This document shows, piece by piece, positions 34,183-60,088 of a DNA stretch of 64,000 bases. The stretch's first letter is position 1; the number at the start of each line of letters is the position of its first letter. A program made the position numbers and the translations under genes. Origin of the DNA: Rhodospirillales bacterium (GTDB lineage Bacteria; Pseudomonadota; Alphaproteobacteria; Dongiales; Dongiaceae). The notes beneath the pieces were generated by a model that ran no database searches, was not told the DNA's origin, and was given only the letters and a program-made list of their open reading frames with translations. The DNA is taken from the NCBI GenBank assembly GCA_009885795.1, contig VFKA01000072.1:1-64000 (forward strand), written 5' to 3'.

Positions 34183-34207
34183 GGTAAATCGATTGCGGCC
34201 GGCCAAC

Positions 34208-35638
34208 TCACGCGATCAAACCGCCAAAGCCATGGCGCAGAAGTAGATCGCGCTTCAAATCGTTGTAACGGTTGGCGTCCTTCTTCATCCGGTTCGTCAC
34301 CGCCCATAGCAACGACCGGTCGGTGAATTGGCGGTCGGACATTCTCGCCTCGGGAAGATAGGCGAAACGCGTCCCGCCCGAAGCCCGGTCGTGAACGGCA
34401 TGGAGCGCCACCTGGTCCAGAAACCAGCGCGCCGTACCTTTCCGGAAGTTGTCGGCGATGAAGAGGGCGACGCGCCGCAGAAAATCGGCGCCAGCGGTCC
34501 CCGGAACCGCGTACACCACGCGGCCGACGATACGCGCCCAGGGCGGCTGCGCATCGATGCGGCACAGGCCGATATCGGCGGTCGCGTGCAGGGCGGCCAG
34601 CATGGCGCTCGGGTCGGCGCGCCAGAGCGAGTCGGCGTCGACCATGAGTGTCGGAACGTTTGTCGCCCGAACGAACTGGAACAGCCGGCAGAATCGCGCC
34701 GAGGAATAGTAGGTATTCTTGGCGTAATAGCGGGCGGTGTCGACGGTCTCGCGCGAGATCGTCAGCGGGCGCGGCGCCAGCTTCGCCCGCACGGCGTCGA
34801 TAAGCGGCATGGTATCGGCTGCCGGATTATAAAGATGCACATGCACGCCCGCGCCGATGCCGGCCTCGATCATGGAGAGCAGCAGCGGCACGAGATGCGG
34901 GCGCACGTAACCGGAATCGGCGGCGACGAACAGGCACCAATTCTTGTGCGCGGGTTGGCGCATCTCCCCTTCGTCGATCGGCGGCAGATGCTCAAGCGCC
35001 GGCCCGATCGCCGCCGCGCCGTCGAGGCCGATAGAGCCGAAATCGAAGGCTCCCTCGACCGGCCTGCCCTGTTCGAAGGTGGCCGCCATCAGGCAAAGAT
35101 CGACCAGCCCGGCGCCAAGTTGGCCTTTTCGAGCCGTTGCCGCTCTCGCCTCTCCTTCCGCCTCGGGCCAATGTCGGGCGAGCGTGTGGATGAGCGCCAT
35201 CGCCGCGTGGGCATAGCCGTCGTCCGGCTCCAGGCGCACGGCTTAGCCGAAGGCGGCAATCGATTCCTCGAACTGTCCGGCCTTGACCAAGGCGGTGCCG
35301 AGGTTCCGCCGATAGGCGGCGATGTCCGGACCGGCCGCGATGCCGGCGTGAAAATGCCGGATGGCGTCGTCTATTCTCGCCGCGCGTATCGCCGCCAGCC
35401 CCGCCAGGTGCTCGGCAAAGCCGTGGTCCGGTACGCCTTGAGCGGCTGCCTCGGCGGCTGCCGCTTGGGCGGCGCCGGCATCGCCGCGAGAGAGCGCCGC
35501 CACGCCGTCGGCAACGATTCGTCGATACGCCGCCGGCAGCCCGAGGATCGGCGCATCGGGAACCGCGAAATCGTTTATCGTCGAAAGCCAGTAGGGATCG
35601 GCCTGGCCGCACAACAGATATGAGTCGCCGGCGGTCAT
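34208..35638 (-). pseudogene. TPR/glycosyltransferase-like protein broken by an in-frame TAA
   Basis: ATG 35638 overlaps the DUF1491 stop as ATGA. The first 131 residues are TPR-like (LAGLAAIRAARIDDAIRHF, YRRNLGTALVKAGQFEESI) and end at TAA 35245-35243 after IAAFG. The same frame goes on at once with AVRLEPDDGYAHAAMAL, the rest of that TPR, to 34208. The second part resembles a GT-A nucleotide-sugar transferase: WCLFVAADSGYVRPHL, YYSSARFCRLFQF and VPTLMVDADSLWR with a DxD-like motif. Full length would be 476 residues. A GTG four bases past the TAA could restart translation, so two proteins are possible; a nonsense mutation is simpler. Confidence 0.75.
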
Positions 35639-35967
35639 AGCGTCCGTCCATCGAGCGGGTGGCGGCCGGCGCGGTCCTCGACCTCGACCACCCACAGATC
35701 GGGATCGCGCTTCAAGGCGCGCGCCACATAGGCTTCGGCCGTGTCCTCGGTCGAAATATCGGGCGCCGGCAGCCATCCGAGCTCGCCATCGAGGTCGCGG
35801 GCCTGGCTGACGACGCGCCAGCCGCGTTCGAACCCGTTGATCTTGAGCAAGACCGTGCCGCGCACGGCGTCGCCCCGGCGAGAAAGCACGACCGGATCGC
35901 CGATGCCATCGGCGCGTCGGATATAGGCGGAGACCCACATTTCAGTGGCCAGGCGATGCTCGGTCAT
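35635..35967 (-). CDS. DUF1491 family protein
   Basis: The 110-residue protein starts MTEHRLATEMWVSAYIRRAD and contains GTVLLKINGFERGWRVVSQ and DPDLWVVEVEDRAGRHPLDG, the conserved stretches of DUF1491, a small family of alphaproteobacteria without known function. It overlaps the next gene by ATGA and starts 91 bases from the divergent OGT-like gene. Confidence 0.87.
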   Translation of the reverse strand: MTEHRLATEMWVSAYIRRADGIGDPVVLSRRGDAVRGTVLLKINGFERGWRVVSQARDLDGELGWLPAPDISTEDTAEAYVARALKRDPDLWVVEVEDRAGRHPLDGRTL

Positions 35968-36058
35968 GGAAGGCCAGTCTATCAGCAGCGCGCTAAATCA
36001 TGACAGGGGGCGCGGGGTCGCCTATAACCCCGCTACCCCCCGAGTGGCGTGGACTTTC

Positions 36059-38287
36059 ATGCAAGACTTGCGTCCCCAAACCCAGCTGAGCCGCGCCGCG
36101 GCGGCCCTTGCCCAGGGCCGCGCGCGCGAGGCGCTGAGTATCTGCGACCGGATGCTGAAGACGAAGACCGCGTCGCCCGACGTTCTGCACGTCAAGGGCC
36201 TGGCCCTTCACACGCTGGGCGATAACGGGAAGGCCATCGAAGCGATCGAAGCCGCGATCAAAATGTCGCCCGATCGCGCCGACTTCCAGGGGAATCTCGG
36301 GCGCGCGTTGGCGGCGGGGCTTGACTACCGGCGGGCGATCCAGTCGTTCGAAAAGGCGCTCCAGCTGGAGCCGAAATCGCCCCGCGACCTGTCGGACCTC
36401 GGCACGGCGCTGTGCTGTTTGGAGCGGGTGGAGGAAGGAGCGGGCGCCTATGCGCGGGCGCTGGAGTTGGCGCCGAATGACGGCGCCACCGCGCTGCGCC
36501 TTGCCCGCGCCGAGGCAATTTTAGGCCGGCACGAGGCGGCGCTGGCCCGCGCGATCCGCGTCATGGCAGCGGTCCCCGAATTGCGGGGCCGCGCCGAAGC
36601 CGTGATCGGCCTCGTCCATCTCGAGCGGCGGCAGTGGCCGCAAGCGGTCGAGGCGTTTACCCGGAGCCTCGAAGCCAGTCCGGCCCAGATCGAGGCGCTG
36701 CTTGGCCGCGCCAAGGCGCGGATGCGCCTTCGCGAGGCTGCGGGAGCACGGGCCGACGCGGCCGAGGCGGCGCGCCGGATGCCGGCCGACCCGGAGGCGC
36801 AACTGCTGCGGGGTCAAGTCGAGAAGGAGTTCGGCGAGGTGGCCGCCGCCGCCGCCGCCTTCGAGCGCGCCATGGCGTCGCGCCCGCTCGACCTCCGCCC
36901 GCGCTGGGAGCGCGCCAACCTGCTTCCCGTCGCCTACGATTCGCAAGAGGACATCGCGCGCTACCGCAACGATTGGCGCAAGCGCATGATGGGCATCGCC
37001 GAGACCCTCGTCCTGGATACGCCCGAGCGGATCAACGCCGCCGTTTGGGCGATCAAGAGCGCCAACAACTTCCGCCTCGCCTATCAGGGCATGGACGACC
37101 GAAAGCTGCAGGAAATTTATGGCGGCGTCCTCGCCCGCATCGCCGCCGCGCGGTATCCGGAACACGCCCAGCGGCCGGCCGCGCCGCGGCGCCAACGCCC
37201 CAGGGTCGGGTTCGTGTCCGAATTCCTGCGCCGGCATTCGATCTGGAAGACGCATGGCGCGTGGATCACCCGAAGCGGCAAGCAGATCGAAAAATACGTC
37301 TATTACACCGGCGCCGATTTCGACGACGGCTACACCGGCGCCATACGCGAGGCCGCGGACGTTTTCGTGCACGAAACTTCGGTCGCGAACCTCATCCCGC
37401 TCATCGCCGGCCACAACCTCGACGTTCTCGTCTATCTCGATCACGGCATGAGCGTCGATTTGCAGATCGCCGCCGCCTTGTGGCTGGCGCCGGTGCAAGT
37501 GAACGGCCTCGGCCATCCGGTGACCTCCGGTCTTCCGACGATGACGCATGCGTTCACCAGCGCGCTCATGGAACCCGAGGACGGCGACCTGCATTACAGC
37601 GAACGGCTGGTCCGGCTCGCCAACACCGGCGCTTGCTACGGACTGGCGCGCATCGAGGACGATCTCGCCCTCGTGCCGCGCCCGGAGCGCGATGGAGGGC
37701 GGGCCGAGTATCTCTGCGCCCAGAATCTCCAGAAATACCTGCCTCGACATGACTGGACCTTCGCGGCGATCGCGGCCGAGCTGCCCTCGGCGCGGTTCCA
37801 TTTCATCGCCCGCGAGGGCGAGGGACGCGAGGTCTTCGTCCGCCGCCTGGCCCGCGCCTTCGCCGCCAAGCGGCTCGATCACGAGGCGCATTGCCGGTTC
37901 CACCCGGGCCTCGATCCGCACGGTTATCTGGCGCTCAACCTTGCCTGCGATGTGTTCCTCGACGGCATATCCTGGTCCGGCAACAACACGGCGCACGAGG
38001 CGCTGGCCTGCGGCTTGCCCATCGTCACCTGGCCCGGTCCGTTCATGCGCGCGCGGCACTGCCTGGCGATCCTGGAGCGGCTGGGCCTGACCGAGACCGT
38101 CGTCTCGAGCGCCGAGGCGTTCGTGACGGAGGCGGTTCGGCTCGGCCGCGACCGCGAATGGCGCCGGCATTTGAGCGCCGAGGGCGGGCGGCGCCTGTCC
38201 CGCCTGTTCGACGATCCGGCGCCGGTGCGGAGCCTCGAAAAAAGCCTAGCCGCGCTCGCTGGCGGGATTGGCGAAAATGACCTATAG
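36059..38287 (+). CDS. TPR-containing OGT/SPINDLY-like glycosyltransferase (GT41 type)
   Basis: The 742-residue protein has about eight TPR units over residues 1-310 (e.g. ADFQGNLGRALAAGLDYRRAIQSFEKAL) and a C-terminal GT-B catalytic region from about residue 375: RPRVGFVSEFLRRHSIWKTH, GHPVTSGLPTMTHAFTS and the UDP-site DGISWSGNNTAHEALACG followed by LPIVTWPG. This is the O-GlcNAc transferase/SPINDLY family, which glycosylates protein Ser/Thr; bacterial targets include flagellin and adhesins. The GxPxTxG motif is slightly changed. Target unknown. ATG 36059 fits the TPR start. Confidence 0.88.
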   Translation: MQDLRPQTQLSRAAAALAQGRAREALSICDRMLKTKTASPDVLHVKGLALHTLGDNGKAIEAIEAAIKMSPDRADFQGNLGRALAAGLDYRRAIQSFEKALQLEPKSPRDLSDLGTALCCLERVEEGAGAYARALELAPNDGATALRLARAEAILGRHEAALARAIRVMAAVPELRGRAEAVIGLVHLERRQWPQAVEAFTRSLEASPAQIEALLGRAKARMRLREAAGARADAAEAARRMPADPEAQLLRGQVEKEFGEVAAAAAAFERAMASRPLDLRPRWERANLLPVAYDSQEDIARYRNDWRKRMMGIAETLVLDTPERINAAVWAIKSANNFRLAYQGMDDRKLQEIYGGVLARIAAARYPEHAQRPAAPRRQRPRVGFVSEFLRRHSIWKTHGAWITRSGKQIEKYVYYTGADFDDGYTGAIREAADVFVHETSVANLIPLIAGHNLDVLVYLDHGMSVDLQIAAALWLAPVQVNGLGHPVTSGLPTMTHAFTSALMEPEDGDLHYSERLVRLANTGACYGLARIEDDLALVPRPERDGGRAEYLCAQNLQKYLPRHDWTFAAIAAELPSARFHFIAREGEGREVFVRRLARAFAAKRLDHEAHCRFHPGLDPHGYLALNLACDVFLDGISWSGNNTAHEALACGLPIVTWPGPFMRARHCLAILERLGLTETVVSSAEAFVTEAVRLGRDREWRRHLSAEGGRRLSRLFDDPAPVRSLEKSLAALAGGIGENDL

Positions 38288-38330
38288 ACAGCCGGCGTTT
38301 CTCCGGAACACTCAACGACGGGAGCCTATC

Positions 38331-39107
38331 ATGTCGAAATTGTTTGCCGCGGCGCTCGCATTGGTCGCGGCGTTGCTCATTGCCGGCCAGTCTTCATCGG
38401 CCGCCGATTGGAAGAAGATCAGGATCGGAACCGAGGGAACGTATGAGCCCTTCACCTTCATGGACGCCTCGGGGCAGTTGCAGGGCTTCGAGATCGACCT
38501 CATGAAGGCGCTCTGCGTCAAGATGGAGGCGGAATGCGAATTCGTGACGATGGAATTCGACGGCATCGTCCCGGCGCTGATCGAAGGTAAGATCGACGCC
38601 ATCTCCACGTCGATGACCATCACCGAGAAACGCAAGGAGATCGTGGACTTCAGCGACAAGTACTACACGCCGCGCCGGCAGTTCGTTTCGTGCCTGGGCG
38701 AGACGATCGCCGACACCAGCCCCGAGGCGCTGAAGGGCCGGGTCATCGGCTCCCAAACCGGAACAGCGGCCTCCGATTTCCTGGCGGAGGTGTACCCGTC
38801 GTCGGAGCTCAAGCTGTACAAGTCGATGGACGACGCCTATCCGGATCTGATCGCGGGGCGGATCGACCTCATCATGGCCAGCGTTCCCAAGGCCTACACA
38901 TTCCTGAATTCGGATGCCGGCAAGCCGTGCAGGAATGCCGGCGAATCCTTCTATAACGAGAAATTCTTCGGCCAAGGCGTGGGCGTCGCGTTGCGCAAGG
39001 AGGACGGCGATCTCAAGGCGAAGTTCGACCAGGCGATCAAGGACGTGCTTGCCGACGGCACCCACGACGCGATCACCAAGAATTACTTCCCGTTTTCCAT
39101 CTATTGA
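38331..39107 (+). CDS. Periplasmic polar amino-acid ABC substrate-binding protein
   Basis: The 258-residue protein has a signal peptide (cleavage near SSSAADW) and the SBP family 3 fold: IRIGTEGTYEPFTFMDASG, GFEIDLMKALC, DFSDKYYTP, GSQTGTAASDFL. Homologues bind lysine, arginine, ornithine or opines. ATG 38331 is preceded by GGGAG. A repeat-filled gap follows, then two permease genes. Confidence 0.93.
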   Translation: MSKLFAAALALVAALLIAGQSSSAADWKKIRIGTEGTYEPFTFMDASGQLQGFEIDLMKALCVKMEAECEFVTMEFDGIVPALIEGKIDAISTSMTITEKRKEIVDFSDKYYTPRRQFVSCLGETIADTSPEALKGRVIGSQTGTAASDFLAEVYPSSELKLYKSMDDAYPDLIAGRIDLIMASVPKAYTFLNSDAGKPCRNAGESFYNEKFFGQGVGVALRKEDGDLKAKFDQAIKDVLADGTHDAITKNYFPFSIY

Positions 39108-39135
39108 GCTGGCGGGGTACTGAATAACCGCGGCG

Positions 39136-39225
39136 CTCACCCTCCCACTTCGACAGGCTCAGTGTGAGGGTGAGCGAACTCAAGGACTTGACCTCACTCT
39201 GAGCTTGTCGAAGGGTGAGCGCAAT
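39136..39225. repeat. Two CTTCGACAGGCTCA palindromic repeats
   Basis: CTCCCACTTCGACAGGCTCA with TGAGGGTGAG, then CTCACTCTGAGCTTGTCG with AAGGGTGAG, form an inverted pair between the binding protein and first permease of one transporter. Confidence 0.8.
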
Positions 39226-39269
39226 GCAGTCGTTCGGTATTCGGCCGCAATACGCGCTAGCCATCCCCG

Positions 39270-39983
39270 ATGCATGAACTCTTGCCACTGTTGTCGCTCG
39301 GGCCCCTGGGCTGGGGCGACGAGCTCCTCGTCGGCGCGTGGCATACGGCCTTGCTGGCGCTGGCCACGGCGCCTTTCGGGATCGTCCTCGGCTTGGTCCT
39401 GGCGCTGGCGAAGGATTCCGGTGAAGTCACGCTGCGCTTCCTCGGCCATGCGCTCACCACGATCGGTCGCGGGCTGCCCGAACTCGTAACGCTTTTCATC
39501 GTCTACTATGGCGGTCAGGCCGTCATCCGCCGGATCGGCGAGGCGCTTGGCCTGGAGACCGCCGTGGAGCTGAGCCCGTTCCTGGCCGGAATCATCGCCC
39601 TGGGCGTGGTGTTCGCGGCTTATGCCAGCGAGGTCTTCCTCGGCGCCCTCAAGGCGCTCGCCCGCGGCCCGGTCGAGGCGGCGCGCGCGCTCGGGCTCGG
39701 CCCCTGGCACAGCTTCCGCTTCATCGTCGCGCCGGAGCTTTTCCGGCTCTCGTTGCCCGGGCTTTCCAACCTTTGGCTCGGATTACTGAAGCAGACGGCG
39801 TTGGTTTCCGTCATCGCCTATGACGAATTGCTGCGCGCATCGTACTTCGCCAGCGCCAGCACTCACCGGCCGCTCTTTTTCTATGGCGCTGCCTGCCTCT
39901 TCTATCTGGGTCTTACCGCGCTGTCGGCGGGCGTGCTTGAACGGATGCGGACCGCGCTCGGCCGCGGCATCGGCGCGGTATGA
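39270..39983 (+). CDS. Polar amino-acid ABC transporter permease (HisQ type)
   Basis: The 237-residue membrane protein has about five hydrophobic helices. The coupling-helix loop is ALKALARGPVEAARALGLGPWHSFRFIVAPE (shown here in parts: PVEAARALGLGPW), typical of HisQ/GlnP permeases. Its stop overlaps the next permease start as ATGA. Confidence 0.92.
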   Translation: MHELLPLLSLGPLGWGDELLVGAWHTALLALATAPFGIVLGLVLALAKDSGEVTLRFLGHALTTIGRGLPELVTLFIVYYGGQAVIRRIGEALGLETAVELSPFLAGIIALGVVFAAYASEVFLGALKALARGPVEAARALGLGPWHSFRFIVAPELFRLSLPGLSNLWLGLLKQTALVSVIAYDELLRASYFASASTHRPLFFYGAACLFYLGLTALSAGVLERMRTALGRGIGAV

Positions 39984-40801
39984 TCGGATTGGCTCAGGGC
40001 CTGCGCCGCCAGTTCCAGGCGAAGCGCGTACTGGGCGTTGCTCTATCGCTGCTGTTGGCATGGGGTGTCGCCTGGGTGCTGTGGCGGGCCGGATACAGCC
40101 TCTACGCGGAAGGCCTTGGGCATCATCTGTCGTTTCTCGTCTCCGGTCTCGGCATGACGATGTTGATCTTGGTCCTATCCGAGGCGGGCGGGTTGATCGT
40201 CGCGGTCGCGCTGGTGACCCTGCGGATGTCGCGGAACAGGGTCCTCGGTGCCGCCGCGACCGGATATTGCTACTTCTTCCGTGGAACGCCGCTGCTGGCC
40301 CAGCTCTATCTGGTTTATTACGGCGCGGCCGAATTGCGAACCGAACTCGACGCGGTGGGTCTCTGGGGGATCTTTCGCGATGCGCTCCCTTGCGTTCTCT
40401 TCGCTTTCATCCTCAACACGGCCGCCTATAAGGCCGAGGTGCTGCTCGGCGCCATCCGGTCCGTGCCGGCCGGGCAAGTGGAGGCGGCAAGGGCGCTTGG
40501 CCTGAAACCGCTCGCGCTCTATTGGAAGGTCGTGTTGCCGCAGGCCGTCATCGTGGCGCTACGCCCGCTCGCCAATGAAACGGCCAAGATGGTGAAGGCC
40601 TCCGCGCTCGCCAGCATCGTCACCGTACTCGACCTTCTGGGAGTGACGAAAGTAATCTATGCGGATACCTTCGATTTCGACATCTATTACGTCGCGGCGG
40701 TCGTCTATCTCGTCTTCATCGAGGGCTTGAGGGCGACAGTCGGGATCATCGAGAGCCGCCTCATCCGCCATCTGCAAGTGCCGGCGCTGGCCGGGCGCTA
40801 A
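39980..40801 (+). CDS. Polar amino-acid ABC transporter permease (HisM type)
   Basis: The 273-residue membrane protein carries YFFRGTPLLAQLYLVYYG, the family's second-helix motif, and the ATPase-docking QVEAARALGLKPLALYWKVV. It pairs with the preceding HisQ-type permease. The expected third gene, a HisP-type ATPase, is absent: the next gene is a convergent ATP-grasp gene seven bases away. The importer must borrow an ATPase or have one elsewhere. Confidence 0.92.
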   Translation: MIGLAQGLRRQFQAKRVLGVALSLLLAWGVAWVLWRAGYSLYAEGLGHHLSFLVSGLGMTMLILVLSEAGGLIVAVALVTLRMSRNRVLGAAATGYCYFFRGTPLLAQLYLVYYGAAELRTELDAVGLWGIFRDALPCVLFAFILNTAAYKAEVLLGAIRSVPAGQVEAARALGLKPLALYWKVVLPQAVIVALRPLANETAKMVKASALASIVTVLDLLGVTKVIYADTFDFDIYYVAAVVYLVFIEGLRATVGIIESRLIRHLQVPALAGR

Positions 40802-40808
40802 GCGGCGG

Positions 40809-41792
40809 TCAGGTAGCGAGCGTCCGCGTCTTCTCGATCAACACCTTGGCCGCGACATCCCAGGCGCCGAACTGGGCCAGATACGCGGCCTTGCCGCCCA
40901 TGGCTTCACGGACCTTCTTGGCGATCTGGGAGGAGAAGGCCCAGGTATTTCCCGCGGCGTTGATCTCGATGATGTAGAGCTTGCCGTCGCGCCGATCGCG
41001 CAGGATATCGCAGGCCTGCAAGGGAATCCCCGGGCAGGCGGCATAGACCTTTCGGGCGAAGTCGAGGATGGCCGTATCCCTGGTGACTGTCAGCCTGTCG
41101 GACATAGCGAACGACAGAAGCGACGGGTGCTTGGGTTCGACGACCCCGTTCGCGAGCGTTTGATCGTCGGCGTCGAGGTCCGGCCGCTCTATCGGAGACC
41201 GGTTGGTCATCGCGTAAACGACCTCGCCAAGAAGCGTCAGCACCCGGTGATAGGTCGCGTGCTTGCCGGTGTCGATGAACTGCTGGACCAGCGCGGGGCC
41301 GCGATTCAGGAAATGATCGGGCGTCATGCCAGCGGGCGACAGCTCTTGCAGCCGGCGCGTTCGAACAAGCAGGCAGTTTCCGCCTTTCGACGTCAATGCC
41401 TGCGGCAGTGGCTTCAGAATGACGAGATCGCTCCAGATCGCCGGGTCGTAGGTCTTGCCGAACTCGAAGCGCTCCGTCATCGGCGTGTCGATGCCGGCAT
41501 CGCGGAAGCGGGCGTACTCTTCGAGCTTGCTCATCTTCCGATTGTGAATGATGGGACCGCGCCGCGGATTGAAATTGCCGAGGTGTCCCAGCCCGACGGT
41601 CAGCGTGGGCCGGTCCCATGGGATTTTCGGCATCGCCTCGGGCGGGTCGCGGGGAAGGACGACAAAGACGCCGATGTCGCCGGCGCGCCGCGCAATGACC
41701 TGCCCGATCTCCCTGAGGTCGTTCGGATCGGACCAATAGTCTTGCGCGACGATCACGAGATTCTTCTTGGCCGGGGGATTGGCAAGGAACAT
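40809..41792 (-). CDS. ATP-grasp-like paralogue A of a tandem triplet
   Basis: The 327-residue protein begins MFLANPPAKKNLVIVAQDYW. An N-terminal pre-grasp part reaches GNFNPRRGPIIHNRKMSKLEE, then GIDTPMTERF as in RimK-type enzymes. The ATP-grasp shows LVILKPLPQALTSKGGNC (Lys and glycine loop), ALVQQFIDTGKHATYHRVL and the metal-binding end CDILRDRRDG then YIIEINAAGNTW. ATP-grasp enzymes join a carboxylate to an amine or thiol via acyl phosphate; substrates here are unknown. The N-half is nearly identical in style to copy B, while the middle (RSPIERPDLDADDQT) matches copy C, suggesting gene conversion. It is the last gene of the operon, nine bases after B. Confidence 0.72.
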   Translation of the reverse strand: MFLANPPAKKNLVIVAQDYWSDPNDLREIGQVIARRAGDIGVFVVLPRDPPEAMPKIPWDRPTLTVGLGHLGNFNPRRGPIIHNRKMSKLEEYARFRDAGIDTPMTERFEFGKTYDPAIWSDLVILKPLPQALTSKGGNCLLVRTRRLQELSPAGMTPDHFLNRGPALVQQFIDTGKHATYHRVLTLLGEVVYAMTNRSPIERPDLDADDQTLANGVVEPKHPSLLSFAMSDRLTVTRDTAILDFARKVYAACPGIPLQACDILRDRRDGKLYIIEINAAGNTWAFSSQIAKKVREAMGGKAAYLAQFGAWDVAAKVLIEKTRTLAT

Positions 41793-41801
41793 GGCCCCTC
41801 G

Positions 41802-42788
41802 TCAATCCGCCAGCGCCCGAGTCTTCTCGATCAAGGCCTTTGCCGCAACCTCCCAAGCGTCTAGTTGCCCGACAAACGCGCCCTTGCCGCCCAGGGCTTC
41901 ACGCTGCACGCCGTAGCTGTAGGACGAAAAGTGCCAGGTGTTCCCCGCGGCGTTGATTTCCAGGGCGAACAATTTTCCATCGCCGTTCCGACGCAGGATG
42001 TCGCAGGCCTGCAAGGGGATCGCCGGAAAGGCGTCATGGATGCGGCGGGCAAAGGCGAAAATTTCATCGTCGAGCCGGAAGAACCTGCGGTCCTTGTAGG
42101 CGACGGCCTGCCCTATTTTGGGATGTCTGGGTTCGACGATGGCGCTTTCGATCGCGGGGTCGTCGGCGTCGAAATCGGGCCGTTCGAAAGGGACGATCGA
42201 CGCGATGGCGTAAAGGACTTCTCCGAACAGCGTCAGCACGCGCCAGCTTGTCGGGTGCTTGCCTGTATCGACGAATTGCTGGACGATCGCCGGTCCCTTG
42301 GCGAGGAAATGGTCGGGTGCCAGGCCCTCGGGAGACAACGCCCGCAACCTTCGCGTTCGAATGAGTTGGCAGGTTCCGCCCTTCGAGGTCATCGCCTGGG
42401 GCAGCGGCTTCAGCACGACGAAATCGCTCCAGATTGCCGGATCGTAGGTCTTGCCATACTCGAAGCGCTCCGTCATCGGTGTGTCGATGCCGGCATGACG
42501 GAAGTGGGCGTGTTCGTCGAGCTTGTTGATCGCCCGATTGTGAATGACCGGGCCCCGCCGCGGGTTGAAATTGCCGAGGTGTCCCAGCCCGACGGTCAGC
42601 GTGGGCCGGTCCCAGGGGATTTGCGGCATCGCCTCGGGCGGGTCGCGGGGAAGGACGACAAAGACACCGATGTCGCCGGCGCGCCGCGCGATGACCTGGC
42701 CGATTTCCTTGAGGTCGTTCGCGTCGGACCAGTAGTCTTGCGCGACGAGTACGAGGTTCTTCTTGGCCGGGGGATTGGCAAGGAACAT
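41802..42788 (-). CDS. ATP-grasp-like paralogue B of a tandem triplet
   Basis: The 328-residue protein shares the first 15 residues of copy A almost exactly (MFLANPPAKKNLVLVAQDYW) and the same landmarks: GPVIHNRAINKLDEH, VVLKPLPQAMTSKGGTC, AIVQQFVDTGKHPTSWRVL and FALEINAAGNTWHFSS. It differs from A and C around VPFERPDFDADDPAI. Nine bases separate it from copy C upstream and from copy A downstream. The final ENA(G)NTW-type motif replaces the usual E-x-N-x-x-pg of RimK enzymes. Fold inference is fair; substrate unknown. Confidence 0.72.
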   Translation of the reverse strand: MFLANPPAKKNLVLVAQDYWSDANDLKEIGQVIARRAGDIGVFVVLPRDPPEAMPQIPWDRPTLTVGLGHLGNFNPRRGPVIHNRAINKLDEHAHFRHAGIDTPMTERFEYGKTYDPAIWSDFVVLKPLPQAMTSKGGTCQLIRTRRLRALSPEGLAPDHFLAKGPAIVQQFVDTGKHPTSWRVLTLFGEVLYAIASIVPFERPDFDADDPAIESAIVEPRHPKIGQAVAYKDRRFFRLDDEIFAFARRIHDAFPAIPLQACDILRRNGDGKLFALEINAAGNTWHFSSYSYGVQREALGGKGAFVGQLDAWEVAAKALIEKTRALAD

Positions 42789-42797
42789 GACGGCCCG

Positions 42798-43787
42798 CTA
42801 ATCCGCGAACGCCCGGGTCTTCTCGATCAACACCTTCGCCGCTACCTTCCAGGCGCCGAGCTGTCCGACAAAGGCGTCGCGGCCGCCCAGGGCGTCGCGG
42901 ATCTTCTTGAAGATTTCGGACGAGAAATGCCAGGTGTTTCCGCCGGCATTGATCTCGATGAGATAGAGCTTGCCGTCACGCTGGTCGCGCAAGATGTCGC
43001 AACCCTGCAAGGGAATGCTTGGAAAGGCGGCATAGACCGACCGCGCGAAATCGAACATCGCCGCGTCCTGAAAGAACGTGATCCGGTCCTTGGTCGCGAA
43101 CCGCTCCTTGATCAGCGGGTGCTTCGGCTCGATGATGGCGTTCTCGATCGTCTGGTCGTCGGCGTCGAGGTCCGGCCGCTCGATCGGAGACCTGTTCATG
43201 GTCGCGTAGAGGGCCTCGCCGAAAAGGGTCAGGACGCGCCAATGCGTGGGATTCTTGCCGGTGTCGACGAATTGCTGAACGAGCGCCGGGCCCTGGGCGA
43301 GGGGATGATCGGCGGGGATTTTCGAGTGCGACAGCGCGTTGAGGCGCGCGGTCCGTATCAGTTGGGCGGAATCGCCTTTCGACGACATCTTGAGCGAGAG
43401 AGGCTTGAAGATAACGAATTCGCCCCAGAGCGCTTCGTCGTAAGCAGCGCCGGCCTTGAAACGCTCCGTGCGCGGCATGGCGATGCCGGCCGCGAGGCTC
43501 CTTGAATATTGGTCGAGCTTGGAAATGGCCTTGTTACGAAAGACACGCCCACGCCGAGGATTGAATTGCCCGAGCATGCCGAAACTGACGGTCAATGTCG
43601 GGCGGTCCCAGGACAGTCCGGGAACCGTATTGTCCCGGTCGTTCCGCGAAACCAGGACGGTGTCGATGTCGTCGGCGTTGCGCTCGATCTCCTCGGCGAT
43701 CGCCAGGAGATCGCGCGGATCGAACCATTGGTCGCGGGCCACCAGGATGAGGTTCTTCTTCTGGCTGTCTTGCGGCGCCGTCATCAT
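42798..43787 (-). CDS. ATP-grasp-like paralogue C, first of a tandem triplet
   Basis: The 329-residue protein is the most divergent copy at its N-terminus (MMTAPQDSQKKNLILVARDQW, FDPRDLLAIAEEI) but keeps SWDRPTLTVSFGMLGQFNPR, VIFKPLSLKMSSKGDSAQL, ALVQQFVDTGKNPTHWRVL and YLIEINAGGNTWHFSS. Its ATG overlaps the sulfotransferase stop as ATGA, so translation is coupled. The three copies keep the same length and the same catalytic landmarks, which argues they are all functional and not decaying duplicates. Confidence 0.73.
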   Translation of the reverse strand: MMTAPQDSQKKNLILVARDQWFDPRDLLAIAEEIERNADDIDTVLVSRNDRDNTVPGLSWDRPTLTVSFGMLGQFNPRRGRVFRNKAISKLDQYSRSLAAGIAMPRTERFKAGAAYDEALWGEFVIFKPLSLKMSSKGDSAQLIRTARLNALSHSKIPADHPLAQGPALVQQFVDTGKNPTHWRVLTLFGEALYATMNRSPIERPDLDADDQTIENAIIEPKHPLIKERFATKDRITFFQDAAMFDFARSVYAAFPSIPLQGCDILRDQRDGKLYLIEINAGGNTWHFSSEIFKKIRDALGGRDAFVGQLGAWKVAAKVLIEKTRAFAD

Positions 43788-44629
43788 GGCCTCTGTTTCG
43801 ATGCGATCGGCGCATAGCGCCGCCGTAAGGAGTCTTCATCCACGTCCGTCGTATCATAGCCGAGGCGGGTGGCGATCTCGATGACGTGGGGATGCCGGCC
43901 GATGAGAGTCGGATCCAACTCGGCCCGCGCCGTGCGCCGGTAGCCGTCGGTTGGCTGGTTGCGGGCGGCGTAGATGGACCGCCGGCGCGGCAGGTCGAGG
44001 AAGTCGAGAATCCGGTCGAGCGCGTCGCCGCGGAACAGATCCTCGTAGCGCAGCCGCAGCCACGGCACTCCCAGAGTGCTTTCGAGGTTGAGCGCGAAAC
44101 CGTGCAGCTCGGCCCAGAAATACAGGCACTTCTCGAACGCCGTCATCGCTGCCCAGCGCTCGCGGTAGTCGGGGAAGAGCACCGCCTCGTCCCACGGCGT
44201 CGGCAGGGCGCGGTCGGTGACGTGATGGCCGCTGGCGGCCGAGTAGTAGCCATGCGTCAGCATGGAGGACGCCGACGCCAGGGGATGGCGCGTCAGGTGC
44301 ACGATCCGCAAGCGCCCGGCGAAACGGCGGGCGAAATAGGGAATCGCCGCATGGCACGGCCAGCCGCATTCGATGTACCGGCTCCAGCGCAACAGGGCGT
44401 CGATGCGGTCGGCATGGGCGATGACGGCGCGCGTATCGCCGGCGGGGTCGGGATCGCCCAGCGCCCGCAACTGACGCGGAAAATAATCCATGTAGAGGGG
44501 TTCATGCGTCACCTCCGCCACGTCCGGATAGGCGTCGCCCAGATGCTGGGCCAGCCATTGGGTGCCGGAACGCCCGCTCGACAGCACGAAGGCCGCGTAT
44601 TCGCTCATCCGCTCGGTCGTCCGTGACAT
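43784..44629 (-). CDS. Sulfotransferase family protein
   Basis: The 281-residue protein has the PAPS 5'-phosphosulfate loop AFVLSSGRSGTQWLAQHL at about residues 13-30 and the 3'-phosphate motif RIVHLTRHPLASASS at about 109-123. Such enzymes move sulfate from PAPS to a hydroxyl or amine on sugars, lipids or peptides. The start is either ATG 44629 or ATG 44608 (MSEYAAFVL); neither has a strong ribosome site. It opens a four-gene operon with the ATP-grasp triplet and is divergent from the MFS gene by 86 bases. Confidence 0.85.
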   Translation of the reverse strand: MSRTTERMSEYAAFVLSSGRSGTQWLAQHLGDAYPDVAEVTHEPLYMDYFPRQLRALGDPDPAGDTRAVIAHADRIDALLRWSRYIECGWPCHAAIPYFARRFAGRLRIVHLTRHPLASASSMLTHGYYSAASGHHVTDRALPTPWDEAVLFPDYRERWAAMTAFEKCLYFWAELHGFALNLESTLGVPWLRLRYEDLFRGDALDRILDFLDLPRRRSIYAARNQPTDGYRRTARAELDPTLIGRHPHVIEIATRLGYDTTDVDEDSLRRRYAPIASKQRP

Positions 44630-44715: not shown

Positions 44716-45963
44716 ATGTCCTCCATTCTCGCCCGGCTGACCGCCAGCGGCTGGCTGGTTGTCCTGGTCAGCTTTCTCGTGCTGTCCGTGTCCTTCTCCG
44801 CCCGCTCCGTCCTCGGGTTGGCGATGCCGTATTTCGAAGGCGATCTCGGCTGGTCGCGAAGCCTCGTCTCGACGGGAGGGGCGGTGGCGTTGGTGGTGAT
44901 GGCGGCGGTCGCCCCCGTTGCCGGCAACATGCTCGACCGGTTCGGGCCGCGCGCGCTGCTCGCGGCCGGCCTCGGCGCCGTGGGGCTCGGCATGATCTTG
45001 AGCGCGGCCATGGTCGTGCCCTGGCAATTCTTCGTGGGCTTCAGTCTCTTCGCCGGGGTCGGGTTCGGGCTCGCGGCCAACCATGTCGTCTCGACCGTCG
45101 TCAGTCACCGCTTCGAGGAGAACCGCGGGCTCGCGGTTGGCACCGCCACCTCGGGCTCCACGGCCGGCCAGCTGCTTCTGGTGCCGCTGCTCGCCAGCGT
45201 GCTTACGGTCGCGGATTGGCGCTGGAGCTATCTCACGCTGGGCCTTGTCAGCCTCGCCCTCATCCCTATCGTGTGGATCCTCATCGGCCCCTTGACGCGG
45301 ATGAAGGCGGACCACCGCGGCCGGGCAAGGGATGCGCTGGCTCCGATCGGCGAGCGGCTGGGGCTGCTTGGCCGCAGCTTTACCTTTCACATGTTGTTCT
45401 GGAGCTTCGTCATCTGCGGCTTCACGACCACGGGCGTGATCGAGACACACCTGCTTCCCTATGCCAAGGCATGCGGTTTCCCGCCCTTGGAAAGCGCCAC
45501 GGCCTACGGTGTGCTATCGGCCTTCAATCTCATCGGCATGATCGGGGCCGGGTATCTCGCCGATCGGGTGAACCGGCCGATTCTGCTGGGCGCGATCTAC
45601 GTCCTGCGCGGATTGTCGTTCGTCATCCTCCTGTTCGTGGCCGGCGATCTGAAGCTGCTGTTCGTCTTCGCGGTCATGTTCGGGCTGTTCGATTACGCGA
45701 CCTTCACGGTAACCGCCCATATCGTGGCCAGTCACATGGGACTCAAGATCATGGGGCTCGGCATGGGCATATTGTCCGCCGGCCATTCGCTGGGCGCGGC
45801 GGCCGGCGCCTTCATGGGCGGAATCCTCTTCGACCTGTTCGCGCGTTATCAGTTGGTTTGGGTCGCCTCGATCGTGCTTGCGCTTGCCGCCGGCGTTATG
45901 GCTTTTTCGATCCGCGAGAACCGAGTCCGGCCCGCGCCGGCTCGGGCGCTGGCGGCGGCGTAG
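44716..45963 (+). CDS. MFS transporter
   Basis: The 415-residue protein has about twelve membrane helices and MFS loop motifs (GNMLDRFGPRALLAAG between helices 2 and 3; GYLADRVNRPILLG in the second half). It resembles monocarboxylate/oxalate-type carriers of proteobacteria; the substrate is not readable. Its 3' end overlaps the convergent amidase gene by 68 bases. Confidence 0.9.
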   Translation: MSSILARLTASGWLVVLVSFLVLSVSFSARSVLGLAMPYFEGDLGWSRSLVSTGGAVALVVMAAVAPVAGNMLDRFGPRALLAAGLGAVGLGMILSAAMVVPWQFFVGFSLFAGVGFGLAANHVVSTVVSHRFEENRGLAVGTATSGSTAGQLLLVPLLASVLTVADWRWSYLTLGLVSLALIPIVWILIGPLTRMKADHRGRARDALAPIGERLGLLGRSFTFHMLFWSFVICGFTTTGVIETHLLPYAKACGFPPLESATAYGVLSAFNLIGMIGAGYLADRVNRPILLGAIYVLRGLSFVILLFVAGDLKLLFVFAVMFGLFDYATFTVTAHIVASHMGLKIMGLGMGILSAGHSLGAAAGAFMGGILFDLFARYQLVWVASIVLALAAGVMAFSIRENRVRPAPARALAAA

Positions 45964-47404: not shown

Positions 47405-47549
47405 GGCGGAGCTCCGTGGGCGTTAGGTCGGGAAAGGTAACAGCTTGCGGTCGGCCAGTCATCCTGGCTTGATTGACGGATAGCGGGCGCGTTTCTACAG
47501 TGGACGATTGCTTTGGCGGGGCCGGACATCCTATCGGGAGACGAGGCTT

Positions 47550-48596
47550 ATGAGACATCAAGATTCGAGGCTGGCGCGCCGGTGGCCGGTGGCCGCGCTT
47601 CGGCGGTTACTGGCGTTGGTCGCTGCCTGCGGGGCGTTGACCGCGGGCGTGGCCGCGGCCGAGACGCGGCTCGTCGTCTATACGAATTTCTCGGAAGGCC
47701 AGCGGGAACGGTACGAGGAGATGGTCGAGGACGAGCTCGACGATGTCTCGATCGAGTGGGTCGTCGATACCGGGGCCAAGATCGTCAATCGCCTCGAGGC
47801 CGAAAAAGATGCCCCGAGAGCCGACCTGGTATGGGGCATCTCTAGTACCCGCAGCGCGGCCCTTGCCGGTAAGGGGCTTCTGCATCCATATGCGCCGGTC
47901 GGCGTGCGGCACATCAAACCGGTCTTCCTCGACAAGGCCAATCCGCCCGCATGGGTCGGCATCGGCGCCTGGACGGTTGGCATCTGCTTCAATACGGCGT
48001 TGGCAAAGCCGCTCGGGCTGCGCGCCCCGACAACCTGGACGGAACTGGGAAATCCGATCTATCGGCAGCACGTCCTTATGCCCGACCCCAATCGCTCCAG
48101 CACGGGGTTCATGATCGTGGCCGGGCTGCTGCAAAAAATTGGCTATCGCAAGGGTTGGACCTATCTCGACCGCCTGCACCACAATATTCAGCGTTTCGAG
48201 CCTTCCGGGACCGCGCCCTGTAGCCGCGTCGCGGACGGGAAGGCGTTGATCGGGCTCGGCAGCACCTATGCGGCCGTGAAGGAAATGCGCGCCGGCGCCC
48301 CGATCGAAGTGATCCTGCCCGCCGACGGCACGTCGTGGGAGATGGAAACCATCGCGATCGTCAATGGCACGCGCAACCTGGACGCGGCCAAAGGCTTGGT
48401 CGATTTCTCGGTCAGCGAGGATGCGATGGACGTGTATTTCGAGGACTACTCGCTGACGCCGCGCGACGACGTGTCGATTTCGTTCCACGGCCTTCCCCAC
48501 GCCGAAGGCGGGCACATGAGCGAAAGCGATCCGAACTGGGTGGCCGAAAACCGCGATCGGATCATCGATTTGTGGAACAAGCGGTACGGTGGTTAG
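47550..48596 (+). CDS. Phosphonate-type ABC substrate-binding protein, first copy
   Basis: The 348-residue exported protein has a long basic N-region and signal peptide (cleavage near AAAETRL), then an SBP type 2 fold of the iron/2-aminoethylphosphonate group: VVYTNFSEGQRERYEEM, ADLVWGISSTRSAALAGKG, DPNRSSTGFMIVAGLLQKIG. It is related to the next gene, and two binding proteins with one ATPase suggest two ligands. Ligand identity follows from the locus rather than the sequence itself. Confidence 0.85.
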   Translation: MRHQDSRLARRWPVAALRRLLALVAACGALTAGVAAAETRLVVYTNFSEGQRERYEEMVEDELDDVSIEWVVDTGAKIVNRLEAEKDAPRADLVWGISSTRSAALAGKGLLHPYAPVGVRHIKPVFLDKANPPAWVGIGAWTVGICFNTALAKPLGLRAPTTWTELGNPIYRQHVLMPDPNRSSTGFMIVAGLLQKIGYRKGWTYLDRLHHNIQRFEPSGTAPCSRVADGKALIGLGSTYAAVKEMRAGAPIEVILPADGTSWEMETIAIVNGTRNLDAAKGLVDFSVSEDAMDVYFEDYSLTPRDDVSISFHGLPHAEGGHMSESDPNWVAENRDRIIDLWNKRYGG

Positions 48597-48641
48597 CGGG
48601 CAGCAAACTGTTGATCGCCGGTCATGAAATGACTACGCTTT

Positions 48642-48670
48642 CTGTAACGCGAAATTCATGGGGCTGTCAC
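48642..48670 (+). promoter_or_regulatory. Candidate Pho-box-like repeats before the second binding protein
   Basis: CTGTAAC (48642), AATTCAT (48653) and CTGTCAC (48664) lie exactly 11 bases apart, the spacing of PhoB half-sites (consensus CTGTCAT). The match is partial in the first two. They lie 75 bases before the ATG at 48745, and the downstream genes look like phosphonate uptake. A motif scan of the genome would be needed to support it. Confidence 0.35.
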
Positions 48671-48744
48671 GGAAACGGCCCGAATACGGCGGCAATCGTT
48701 TAGGCGCGTCTAGGACGCGAACCTTTAATCAGCAGGGGGGAATC

Positions 48745-49788
48745 ATGCAGTCACGCATTGCGGCAAGTTCGCGGTATGTAGCGGCGGCGTTGCTGGCCCT
48801 GTCGGCGGCAATCGGCCTGTCGATGGGCGCCCAGGCGCAATCCAAGCTCGTGGTCTACACCGCGCTCGAGGACGATCAGTTGAAGGCTTACGCCGAGGCT
48901 TTCGCGGGCGTGCGCCCGGATATCGAGATCAATTGGGTGCGCGATTCGACCGGCCCGATCACGGCGCGGCTTCTGGCCGAGAAGGACAACCGCCAAGCCG
49001 ACGTCGTGTGGGGCTTGGCGGCGACCAGCCTGTTGCTGCTCGACCAGCAGGGCATGGTGGAACCCTACGCGCCCGCCGGTCTGGATGCGATCAAGCCGAG
49101 CTTCCGCGATGCCAAGGATCCGCCGGCCTGGGTCGGCATGGACGCCTGGGCCTCGGCCATTTGCTTCAACGAGGCCCTCGCCGGGCCGCTCGGCCTTCCG
49201 AGGCCCTCGAGTTGGGCGGACCTCTTGAAGCCGGTCTATCGCGGCCACATCGTCATGCCGAACCCGAATTCGTCGGGCACCGGGTATCTGACCGTTTCGG
49301 CCTGGCTTCAGTTGATGGGCGAGGAAAAGGCCTGGGCCTTCATGGACGGGCTGCACAAGAACATCAACACCTACCTCCACTCCGGCTCCAAGCCCTGCGT
49401 TCAAGCGGCCAAGGGCGAATTCGCCATGGGCATTTCCTTCGCCTATCGCGGCGTGCAGGAGAAGAACAAGGGCGCGCCCATCGATATCATCCTGCCTTCG
49501 GAAGGCATCGGCTGGGACATGGAAGCGACCGCCATCATGAAAGGTACGCCGAACATGGACGCGGCGAAGGTGCTGGCCGATTTTGCCGCCAGCCCGACCG
49601 CCAACGAGCTCTATAACAAGAGCTACTCGGTGGTGGCGATTCCCGGAATCTCGCGGACGATCAAGAACTATCCGGCTAATGAGGAAGCGTTGTTGATCAA
49701 GAACGACTTCGCTTGGGCGGCGGGCAATCGCGAGCGGATTCTCGCCGAGTGGCAGTCGCGCTACGGCTCCAAGGACGCGCCGAAGTAA
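48745..49788 (+). CDS. 2-Aminoethylphosphonate-type ABC substrate-binding protein, second copy
   Basis: The 347-residue protein has a signal peptide (cleavage near GAQAQSK) and the same fold as its neighbour: LVVYTALEDDQLKAYAEAF, ADVVWGLAATSLLLLDQQG, MPNPNSSGTGYLTVSAWLQL. It matches the PhnS-like group. GCAGGGGGG precedes the ATG. The ATPase gene follows after a palindromic repeat. Confidence 0.88.
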   Translation: MQSRIAASSRYVAAALLALSAAIGLSMGAQAQSKLVVYTALEDDQLKAYAEAFAGVRPDIEINWVRDSTGPITARLLAEKDNRQADVVWGLAATSLLLLDQQGMVEPYAPAGLDAIKPSFRDAKDPPAWVGMDAWASAICFNEALAGPLGLPRPSSWADLLKPVYRGHIVMPNPNSSGTGYLTVSAWLQLMGEEKAWAFMDGLHKNINTYLHSGSKPCVQAAKGEFAMGISFAYRGVQEKNKGAPIDIILPSEGIGWDMEATAIMKGTPNMDAAKVLADFAASPTANELYNKSYSVVAIPGISRTIKNYPANEEALLIKNDFAWAAGNRERILAEWQSRYGSKDAPK

Positions 49789-49803
49789 GCAGTCCGCCTC
49801 ACT

Positions 49804-49852
49804 CTGCCCTCTCCCCCTCATCCTGAGCCTGTCGAAGGATCGGGGGAGAGGG
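49804..49852. repeat. Nested palindromic repeat
   Basis: CCCTCTCCCCCTCATCC with mirrored GGGGGAGAGGG encloses CTCATCCTGAGCCTGTCG, combining the 2440-2507 and CTTCGACAGG families in one element ahead of the ATPase start. Confidence 0.75.
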
Positions 49853-49866
49853 TTGTGCCCTCGCCC

Positions 49867-50934
49867 ATGGCCGCGCCCTATCTGCGGATCGAACATGTCG
49901 GCAAGCTGTTCGGCGGCTTCCGCGCGCTGAACGACGTTAGCTTGAACATCAACGAAGGCGAGCTTGTCTGCTTTCTTGGGCCCTCGGGGTGCGGCAAGAC
50001 GACGCTGCTGCGCGCCATCGCCGGCCTCGACGTGCAGACCACGGGCGCCATCCACCAGGCCGGCCGCGATATCTCCGCCCTGCCGCCATCGGAGCGGGAT
50101 TTCGGCATCGTCTTCCAGTCCTATGCCCTCTTCCCCAACATCACGGTCGCGCGCAACGTCGGCTACGGCCTCGCCAGCACCGGGGCCGATCGAGCCAAGG
50201 CTTCGGCGCGGGTGGCCGAGCTCCTCGCCCTCGTCGGCCTCACCGACCAAAGCGACAAGTATCCGGCCCAGCTTTCCGGCGGCCAGCAGCAGCGCGTCGC
50301 CTTGGCGCGCGCGCTGGCGCTGTCGCCCGGACTGCTGTTGCTCGACGAGCCGCTGTCGGCGCTCGATGCCCGCGTGCGGGCGCACTTACGCCACGAGATC
50401 CTGGCGCTCCAGCGCAAGCTCAAGGTGACCACGATTTTGGTGACGCACGACCAAGAGGAAGCGCTCACCATGGCCGATCGCATCGTGGTCATGAACCACG
50501 GCGTCATCGAGCAGGTCGGCACGCCCGAGGACATCTACCGCCGGCCGGCGACGGCCTTCGTCGCCGACTTCGTCGGGCGGATGAATTTCCTGCCGGCCGA
50601 GATGGCCGGTCCGAAGCGGCTGGCGTTGGCGGGAGTCTTTCTCGATTGCGCGGAGGCGATCGATCTGCCGGCCGGCAGTCCGGTGAACGCCTGCCTGCGC
50701 CCCGAGGACGTCATGGTGCGCGATCTGGGGCTGGGCCACGCCAACGCGCTCGACGTCGGCGTGGCGGCGATGGAGTTCCTCGGCTCGTTCTACCGGGCGC
50801 GCCTCACGACCGCGGCGGCGGTCGAGATCACCGCCGATTTCTCGGCGAACGCCGTGCGCGATCTTGGAATCGAGGTCGGCGCCACCATCAAGGTGGTGCT
50901 GCCGCCCGACCGCCTCCGGGTGTATCCGCGATGA
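49867..50934 (+). CDS. 2-Aminoethylphosphonate-type ABC transporter ATP-binding protein
   Basis: The ATPase has Walker A GPSGCGKTTLLRAIAG, Q-loop IVFQSYALFPN, signature LSGGQQQRVALARALA, Walker B LLLLDEPLSALD and H-loop THDQEEAL, then a TOBE-like tail of 120 residues. It energises the fused permease that follows and starts by ATGA overlap. ATG 49867 gives 355 residues; GTG 49855 is in frame just upstream. AEP specificity is inferred from gene order with phnW and phnX nearby. Confidence 0.92.
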   Translation: MAAPYLRIEHVGKLFGGFRALNDVSLNINEGELVCFLGPSGCGKTTLLRAIAGLDVQTTGAIHQAGRDISALPPSERDFGIVFQSYALFPNITVARNVGYGLASTGADRAKASARVAELLALVGLTDQSDKYPAQLSGGQQQRVALARALALSPGLLLLDEPLSALDARVRAHLRHEILALQRKLKVTTILVTHDQEEALTMADRIVVMNHGVIEQVGTPEDIYRRPATAFVADFVGRMNFLPAEMAGPKRLALAGVFLDCAEAIDLPAGSPVNACLRPEDVMVRDLGLGHANALDVGVAAMEFLGSFYRARLTTAAAVEITADFSANAVRDLGIEVGATIKVVLPPDRLRVYPR

Positions 50935-52640
50935 CCTTGGCGGCGCTGCCCGTGCCCGCGGCAAGCCGGCCGGTTCGGGCGCGGCTCGGGCGCGACGGTA
51001 TGATCTCGCTTTCGATGCTGGCGCTGGTCGCGGCCTATCTCGCCCTCACCGTGGTCATCCCGCTCTACGCCTTGCTGCGCAAGAGCGTGCAAGACAAGGA
51101 CGGCGCCTTCATCGGCATCGCCAATTTCGAGCGCTACTTCGCCGATCCGGCGTTGGCGGAATCGATCGGCAACACCTTCACCGTGTCGATCATCGGCACG
51201 GTCATCACGATCGCGCTGGCCTTCATCTACGCCTACGCGCTCCAGCGCAGTTGCATGCCGGGACGGGGCCTGTTCAAGGCCATCGCGCTGGTGCCGCTGC
51301 TGGCGCCCTCTCTGCTGCCGGCGCTCTCGCTCATCTATCTCTTCGGCAATCAGGGCATGCTCAAATCCTGGCTGTTCGGCTACAGCATCTACGGCCCCAT
51401 CGGCATCATCATGGGGGAAGTGTTCTACGCTTTTCCGCATGCGGTGCTGATAATCTTCACGTCGCTCGCCATGGCCGATCAGCGTCTCTACGAGGCGGCG
51501 ACGGCGTTACGCGCCGGCCCGGCGCGGATGTTTTTCACAGTCACGCTGCCGGGCTGCCGCTATGGCGTGGTCAGCGCCTGCTTCGTCGTCTTCACGCTGA
51601 TCTTTACCGATTTCGGCGTGCCGAAGGTGGTCGGCGGCCAATACGACGTGCTCGCGACCGACGTCTACAAGCAGGTCATCGGCCAGTTCAATTTCCAGAT
51701 GGGCGCCGTCGTCGGGATGTTGCTGCTGATTCCGGCCGTGCTGTCGTTCGCGGTGGATCGCCTGGTGCAGCGCCGCCAGGTCGCCTTGCTATCGGCTCGC
51801 GCCGTGCCCTTCGAGGCCAAGCCCCATGCGCTCCGCGATGCGGTGTGCCTAGCCTTCTGCGTGGCCGTGAGCGCGATCCTGCTCGGCATGTTGGCGGTCG
51901 CCGGCATGGGATCGGTCATCCGCTACTGGCCTTACGACATGGGCCTGACGCTCGCCAACTACGACTTCAACAACATCGACACCAATGGCTGGGGCGCCTA
52001 TTGGAACAGCATCGTCATGGCGTGCGCCACCGCGGTGATTGGAACGGCAATCGTCTTCGCCGGGGCCTACCTGGTGGAGAAAACCCGCGGCCTCGGGCGG
52101 ATGCGGGCGGCGATCCACTTCGCGGCCATGGTGCCGCTGGCGGTGCCGGGGCTGGTACTCGGGCTCTCCTACATCTTCTTCTTCAACGCCAGGGCGAACC
52201 CGTTGAATTTTCTCTATCTGACGATGGCGATCCTGGTGATCAACACCATCGCGCATTTCTACACCGTGTGCCATTTGACGGCGCTGACGGCCTTGAAACA
52301 GCTCGACGCCGAATTCGAGGCGGTGTCGGCGTCGCTGAAGGTGCCGTTCTACAAGACGTTCTGGCGGGTGAGCGTGCCGGTGTGCCTGCCCGCGATCATC
52401 GACATCGCGATCTATTACTTCGTCAACGCGATGACGACGGTCTCGGCGGTGGTGTTTCTCTACTCGTCGGACACCAAGCTCGCGTCGATCTCGGTGCTCA
52501 ACATGGACGATTCCGGCAACACCGCCAATGCCGCCGCCATGGGGATGACCATCGTGGCGACCTCGGCCGCGGTGCGGCTGTTGCAGGCGCTGCTGCTGCG
52601 CGGGCTCAACGCGCGTACACAGGCGTGGCGGCGGCGGTGA
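50931..52640 (+). CDS. 2-Aminoethylphosphonate-type ABC transporter permease (fused two-unit)
   Basis: The 569-residue membrane protein consists of two permease units fused: the first coupling motif is YEAATALRAGPARMFFTVTLP, the second EAVSASLKVPFYKTFWRVSVP. About twelve hydrophobic helices are visible. Fused permeases are typical of the AEP/iron(III) group next to a PhnT-type ATPase. ATG at the ATGA overlap with the ATPase stop. Confidence 0.92.
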   Translation: MTLAALPVPAASRPVRARLGRDGMISLSMLALVAAYLALTVVIPLYALLRKSVQDKDGAFIGIANFERYFADPALAESIGNTFTVSIIGTVITIALAFIYAYALQRSCMPGRGLFKAIALVPLLAPSLLPALSLIYLFGNQGMLKSWLFGYSIYGPIGIIMGEVFYAFPHAVLIIFTSLAMADQRLYEAATALRAGPARMFFTVTLPGCRYGVVSACFVVFTLIFTDFGVPKVVGGQYDVLATDVYKQVIGQFNFQMGAVVGMLLLIPAVLSFAVDRLVQRRQVALLSARAVPFEAKPHALRDAVCLAFCVAVSAILLGMLAVAGMGSVIRYWPYDMGLTLANYDFNNIDTNGWGAYWNSIVMACATAVIGTAIVFAGAYLVEKTRGLGRMRAAIHFAAMVPLAVPGLVLGLSYIFFFNARANPLNFLYLTMAILVINTIAHFYTVCHLTALTALKQLDAEFEAVSASLKVPFYKTFWRVSVPVCLPAIIDIAIYYFVNAMTTVSAVVFLYSSDTKLASISVLNMDDSGNTANAAAMGMTIVATSAAVRLLQALLLRGLNARTQAWRRR

Positions 52641-54065: not shown

Positions 54066-54158
54066 ACCAAGTGACCCTCTCAGAAATCGAAGACAGACCT
54101 CTATCAGCGCCGTTTGTGGCTACTGAGCGGTCGCCGAATCGAGCCGATCGGGCGCGCG

Positions 54159-54814: not shown

Positions 54815-54845
54815 CGGCGCTTCCTACGGTTCGATGAAATGTACC

Positions 54846-55313: not shown

Positions 55314-55315
55314 CG

Positions 55316-57353: not shown

Positions 57354-57359
57354 CGGTCA

Positions 57360-57369
57360 CCCCCCCCCC
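57360..57369 (-). repeat. Homopolymer of ten G before the methyltransferase start
   Basis: On the minus strand ten consecutive G stand six bases before ATG 57353, the place of a Shine-Dalgarno site. Tracts of this length change size by slipped-strand mispairing, so expression of the methyltransferase could vary between cells. Confidence 0.8.
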
Positions 57370-57411
57370 GTCACTAGAACAAAAGAAGAACTTTCCGGGA
57401 TAATCGATCGG

Positions 57412-58803: not shown

Positions 58804-58805
58804 TA

Positions 58806-60052: not shown

Positions 60053-60088
60053 TACAACCCTTCGACACCAAACCAAGGAAACATCATC

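Follow-up and report, generated by a model that had tools for sequence, protein, structure and literature searches.

Three tandem ATP-grasp-type paralogues beside a sulfotransferase-like gene in a Rhodospirillales bacterium

Gene content of the locus

Four minus-strand genes lie in close succession in the window, i.e., the whole 64,000-nucleotide stretch of DNA that was analyzed. The first encodes a sulfotransferase-like protein, and the three that follow are homologous to one another and are referred to as copies C, B, and A (Table 1). The tight coupling described in the initial annotation was confirmed in its coordinates, its ATGA overlap, and its nine-base spacers, which were read from the DNA at 42797-42789 (C/B) and 41801-41793 (B/A). 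The protein lengths given there and the motifs VQQF.DTGK and EINA(A/G)GNTW, common to A, B, and C, were likewise recovered. The overlap and the short spacers make co-transcription and coupled translation of the four genes likely. A promoter and terminator scan gave signals scarcely above those of shuffled sequence. GC3 is 0.79-0.84 across the four genes and comparable to that of neighboring genes. Pairwise protein identity is 71% (A-B), 57% (A-C), and 58% (B-C), and dN is lower than dS for every pair (dN/dS values of 0.20/0.68, 0.33/0.86, and 0.36/1.21). Chance cannot account for three consecutive homologous open reading frames, and with dN far lower than dS, the three copies are genuine genes evolving under purifying selection.

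Table 1. Features of the operon and of the rest of the window
Feature	Position	Strand	Remark
Sulfotransferase-like gene	44629-43784	minus	281 aa ORF; first operon gene
Copy C, ATP-grasp-like	43787-42798	minus	329 aa; ATGA overlap with sulfotransferase-like gene
Copy B, ATP-grasp-like	42788-41802	minus	328 aa; 9 bp 3' of C
Copy A, ATP-grasp-like	41792-40809	minus	327 aa; 9 bp 3' of B
Mosaic segment, 5' part of A (~161 codons)	41308-41792	minus	unusually close to B 42304-42788 (minus)
Amino-acid-type ABC importer (SBP_bac_3 and two BPD_transp_1 genes)	38325-40801	plus	ends 7 bp from end of A
MFS transporter gene	44716-45963	plus	divergent; 86 bp from sulfotransferase-like gene
Best-scoring control protein	4912-8199		HHalign 29.2
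phnS2-type binding proteins, two	47508, 48658		47508 below model cut-off
PhnT2	49855-50934		
PhnU2	within 49989-52640		
DNA cytosine-5 methyltransferase	56100-57353	minus	in low-GC stretch
Vsr endonuclease	57412-57813	minus	in low-GC stretch
phn-type LysR	57931-58803	minus	
PhnW	58850-60052		
PhnX	60089-60919		

The first operon gene, whose true start is probably the second ATG at 44608, probably encodes a PAPS-type sulfotransferase-like protein. Its match to PF13469 (Sulfotransfer_3; 22.6 bits, E = 1.4e-4) is below the gathering cut-off of 27, which sets it apart from clear members of that family. It resembles them in SSGRSGT, near the N-terminus, and RHPLASASS, which look like the 5'- and 3'-phosphate loops of PAPS sulfotransferases, and in having a relative that is a clear member. 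Relatives of the protein are sparse: a search of 289 genomes of the class yielded no more than two, both weak, the better of which (locus L066) is 30-33% identical and passes PF13469 at 59.6 bits. The surroundings of L066 include NeuB, methyltransferases, transketolase, and an ATP-grasp protein of the LAL_C2 (L-amino-acid-ligase) type, and this cluster is a single, distant parallel to the operon.

TPR/glycosyltransferase genes and an amino-acid importer had been noted next door. The importer lies on the opposite strand; considered as an operon member, it was rejected as convergent to the operon. The MFS gene is also outside the operon, given its divergent orientation. Adjoining the importer, the plus-strand gene at 35945-38287 encodes a TPR protein whose C-terminal part matches GT41 (O-GlcNAc-transferase-like), and the start of this longest frame may be too early. 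Within 32738-35239, a DDE transposase gene (PF13701, 472 aa, minus) abuts another ORF on the minus strand (34208-35239), which lacks a Pfam match and may be a fragment. Genes for 2-aminoethylphosphonate uptake and breakdown are located at 47508-60919. Between the transporter and the catabolic genes, the stretch 52641-57930 is lower in GC (0.56-0.60) and looks inserted, and a small two-gene pair in it (54159-54814) may be a toxin-antitoxin system.

Relationship of A, B, and C to ATP-grasp enzymes

A, B, and C matched no Pfam or NCBIfam model at its cut-off, including any ATP-grasp model. With the RimK model (PF08443), copy A scored 12.2 bits against a gathering cut-off of 21, and B and C gave no match. 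HHalign was used to compare a family alignment of ten sequences, i.e., the three copies and seven single-copy homologs (singletons) of another genus, with ATP-grasp proteins that PF08443 retrieved from related genomes. Against three RimK-type proteins, the family reached a probability of 96.1 and a score of 69.2 over 170 columns; as E-values and probabilities of such single-pair comparisons are uncalibrated to a database, shuffled alignments and unrelated proteins served as controls. The match is in register at the ATP-binding Lys, the LVQ.F hinge, Arg, Asp, and E.N.

Sixty column shuffles scored 14.4 on average and 22.3 at most, the reversed alignment scored 13.1, and seven alignments of unrelated neighbors had at most 2.0% probability. 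Among 55 other proteins of the window, the maximum score was 29.2 (4.8%), obtained by a protein starting with MPKRTDI.SILI.GAGPIV that is presumably the large chain of carbamoyl-phosphate synthase, itself an ATP-grasp enzyme. Overall, control probabilities were 0.1-5% compared with 96% for the family, and the positive control, RimK against GshB, scored 120.6. The seven singletons alone matched RimK at 95.3% (score 63.5), and with the three window copies alone the probability was down to 38.5%. The match of the family to the GshB set was weak (1.5%), although LVQ.F, Arg, Asp, and E.N lined up in it.

Furthermore, K127, S135, G137, Q170, D174-T175-G176, R183, D263, E277, N279, and G282-N283-T284-W285 are invariant in all ten members. 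K127 aligns with the RimK Lys and corresponds to the Lys of the second RAGNYA strand, whereas in the kinase-like part D263 and E277-x-N279 align with RimK at the acidic residue of strand 4 and the ExN of strand 5. The Lys, Asp, and ExN are features of the ATP-grasp template (Burroughs and co-workers, PMC4431377). R183 aligns with the RimK Arg, and a conserved Arg is typical of most peptide- or amide-forming ATP-grasp ligases (PMC4431377). Given a RimK profile match far above controls and the invariant Lys, Arg, Asp, and Glu-x-Asn, the family is very probably ATP-grasp, and the ATP-grasp likeness initially claimed is well borne out. Amide ligation, also claimed, is a reasonable reading rather than a demonstrated one, and we hold it with moderate confidence, mainly because of the single conserved R183. 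AlphaFold2, run on the three window sequences only and in two orderings, gave pLDDT values of 36 and 37 and no usable model.

Like RimK-type ligases, the proteins are about 320 aa long with an N-terminal domain ahead of the grasp. They differ in the family's own signature, E.N..GNTW..SS, and DTG past the hinge, and the window genes differ in being three tandem copies accompanied by a sulfotransferase. The R2K clade, which includes CDC123 (PMC4431377; PF14243), is likewise divergent ATP-grasp, and two of the ten members have weak PF14243 matches (best E = 0.076). In contrast to that clade, the family has the standard ExN motif, and the two-lysine RAGNYA pattern of R2K was not found: with the borders of the region inferred, K127 is the sole invariant Lys in 100-160, and position 136 varies among K, N, and R.

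Distribution of the family and the A/B mosaic

Exactly three family members are present in the assembly of the window, and searches of the 16 remaining genomes of the order found none. Sampling 385 genomes of the class revealed the family in one further genome. A closer search detected a single copy in 7 of the 27 genomes of that genus, 34-40% identical to A/B/C, and none in 13 further genomes of the genus's family. Neither a 398-genome sample of the phylum nor a second search of the class added credible members, and one weak match (G696; 18.5 bits over 59 residues, with one stop) was discarded as chance level. Only subsets of genomes were sampled, and no more than five candidates per genome were scored in the large runs; the family may therefore be more widespread. 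No relatives were detected in genome contigs or viral contigs (degenerate scans) or in plasmids and phages (tblastn), by scans that reach close relatives only. PHROGs gave no match to A, B, or C, and sequence searches of the PDB with the family gave chance-level matches only. In a tree, A, B, and C are monophyletic with respect to the seven singletons (100% support), and the three ligases probably arose through tandem duplication within this lineage.

In all seven genomes of the other genus (L013-L019), the single gene is located between nrdJ (class II ribonucleotide reductase) and a fasciclin gene. This shared position points to a single inherited site, the gene having been lost from, or never present in, the remaining 20 genomes of the genus. 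In two of the seven, the gene adjoins a PAS hybrid histidine kinase. Conserved linkage of the sulfotransferase and ATP-grasp families, whose absence the initial annotation had named as a ground for refutation, did not hold: within ~9 kb of the singleton, tblastn found no sulfotransferase relative in any of the seven genomes. The pairing is not conserved and was found in one genome, the sole representative of its genus in the analysis. An empty site was sought in relatives and not found, the relatives of the adjacent importer gene being only ~40% identical within the family.

The similarity of A and B changes abruptly along the gene. Their DNA identity is 92-97% over codons 1-75, 80-92% up to codon 125, and 43-77% past codon 150, and their protein identity drops from 85% to 58% at about residue 161. 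Across the same point, protein identity rises from 47 to 68% for A-C and from 50 to 66% for B-C. The maximum chi2 is 127 at alignment codon 161, compared with no more than 24 in 5000 permutations. Before codon 161, 155 of 199 informative DNA sites favor A+B; after it, 38 of 187 do. Half-gene trees conflict accordingly, the first half grouping A+B (100%) and the second B+C (88%, with a long B branch). The simplest cause of this mosaic is recombination or conversion among the tandem copies. An unequal rate of change between the gene halves could also be considered, but third codon positions show the same switch (A+B favored at 57 of 80 before the break and 23 of 92 after).

A proposed pathway and its alternatives

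The explanation we tentatively favor, at slightly less than an even chance, is a lineage-specific operon in which three active ATP-grasp ligases and a sulfotransferase make a sulfated amide conjugate. A, B, and C would be catalytically intact enzymes of a new small ATP-grasp family. They would most likely act as carboxylate-amine ligases, in which ATP converts a carboxylate to an acyl phosphate for coupling to an amine. The sulfotransferase would most likely transfer sulfate from PAPS either to the product of the ligases or to the acceptor of that product. The operon would then be a short biosynthetic or tailoring pathway, in which the ligases build or extend an amide-linked compound and the sulfotransferase sulfates it. 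The first half of each ligase, comprising the pre-ATP-grasp domain and the start of the grasp domain, has remained similar between A and B, probably through recombination between copies. The second half, where a large part of the catalytic site lies, has diverged; this would fit the addition of a different unit by each ligase, or it may be drift. Several ATP-grasp ligases in one pathway have a precedent in the phosphonoalamides, where PnaB and PnaC each perform their own ligation step (PMC11867202). Compared by description, that gene set shares with the operon the presence of more than one ATP-grasp ligase; the operon differs in its three close paralogues, its sulfotransferase, and the lack of a known head-group gene.

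The ATP-grasp family may instead have a job of its own, joined by a sulfotransferase without any common product. The position of the singletons between nrdJ and the fasciclin gene, without a related sulfotransferase nearby, and a sulfotransferase linkage found only once both agree with such a chance neighborhood. Against it, genes joined by an ATGA overlap and 9-bp spacers are likely to share a transcript and to be translationally coupled, and the copies are tripled only in the genome with an adjoining sulfotransferase. We regard it as unlikely, at roughly one chance in four.

Somewhat less probable still is ATP-grasp chemistry other than amide formation, with A, B, and C acting as small-molecule kinases like inositol-tetrakisphosphate kinase or as ligases forming other bonds. 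An ATP-grasp fold is compatible with more than one chemistry, and one member weakly matched the Pfam inositol 1,3,4-trisphosphate 5/6-kinase model (E = 0.13), as did the family the ITPK1 chains of the PDB (E = 0.43-0.48). However, those matches are at chance level while the RimK-type match is far above controls, and R183, which marks most ATP-grasp families that form amides, is conserved in all ten members.

Tailoring of a cell-surface glycan, by addition of amino acids and sulfate to capsule, LPS, or a protein glycan, overlaps our preferred explanation and differs by naming the acceptor; we consider it improbable to a similar degree. The company of the sulfotransferase's nearest outside relative, with its NeuB and LAL_C2 ligase, and the TPR/GT41-type gene 2.5 kb from the operon are consistent with it. 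Yet L066 is one distant relative in a large superfamily and its ATP-grasp protein is of a different family, the TPR/GT41 gene is on the opposite strand behind the importer, and no surface-polysaccharide genes were seen beside the operon.

Microviridin clusters carry two graspetide-type ligases, and cross-linking of a ribosomal precursor peptide by the three ligases would suit their size and RimK-like fold, but such a system is very improbable, as the match of copy C to TIGR04187 (11.8 bits, E = 0.1) is far below the cut-off of 350 bits, and the 9-bp spacers and flanking gaps of 7 bp and 86 bp leave no room for a precursor peptide gene inside or beside the operon.

Returning to the sulfated amide conjugate, its product could possibly be a sulfated peptide or amino-acid conjugate, as was initially suggested. 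A literature search found no paper describing a sulfotransferase with three ATP-grasp-like genes. A bolder version, which we consider doubtful, is a new pathway in which three ligases with exchanging and specialized halves produce a short amide-linked conjugate that is sulfated by a dedicated sulfotransferase.

The operon is a compact set of four genes in which to look for a new product, its importance being limited by the single genome with this arrangement. An ATP-grasp family outside all Pfam and NCBIfam models now has its signature residues and ten members named. Furthermore, the mosaic of the copies would be a natural means of testing whether specificity in an ATP-grasp ligase is set by its first or its second half.
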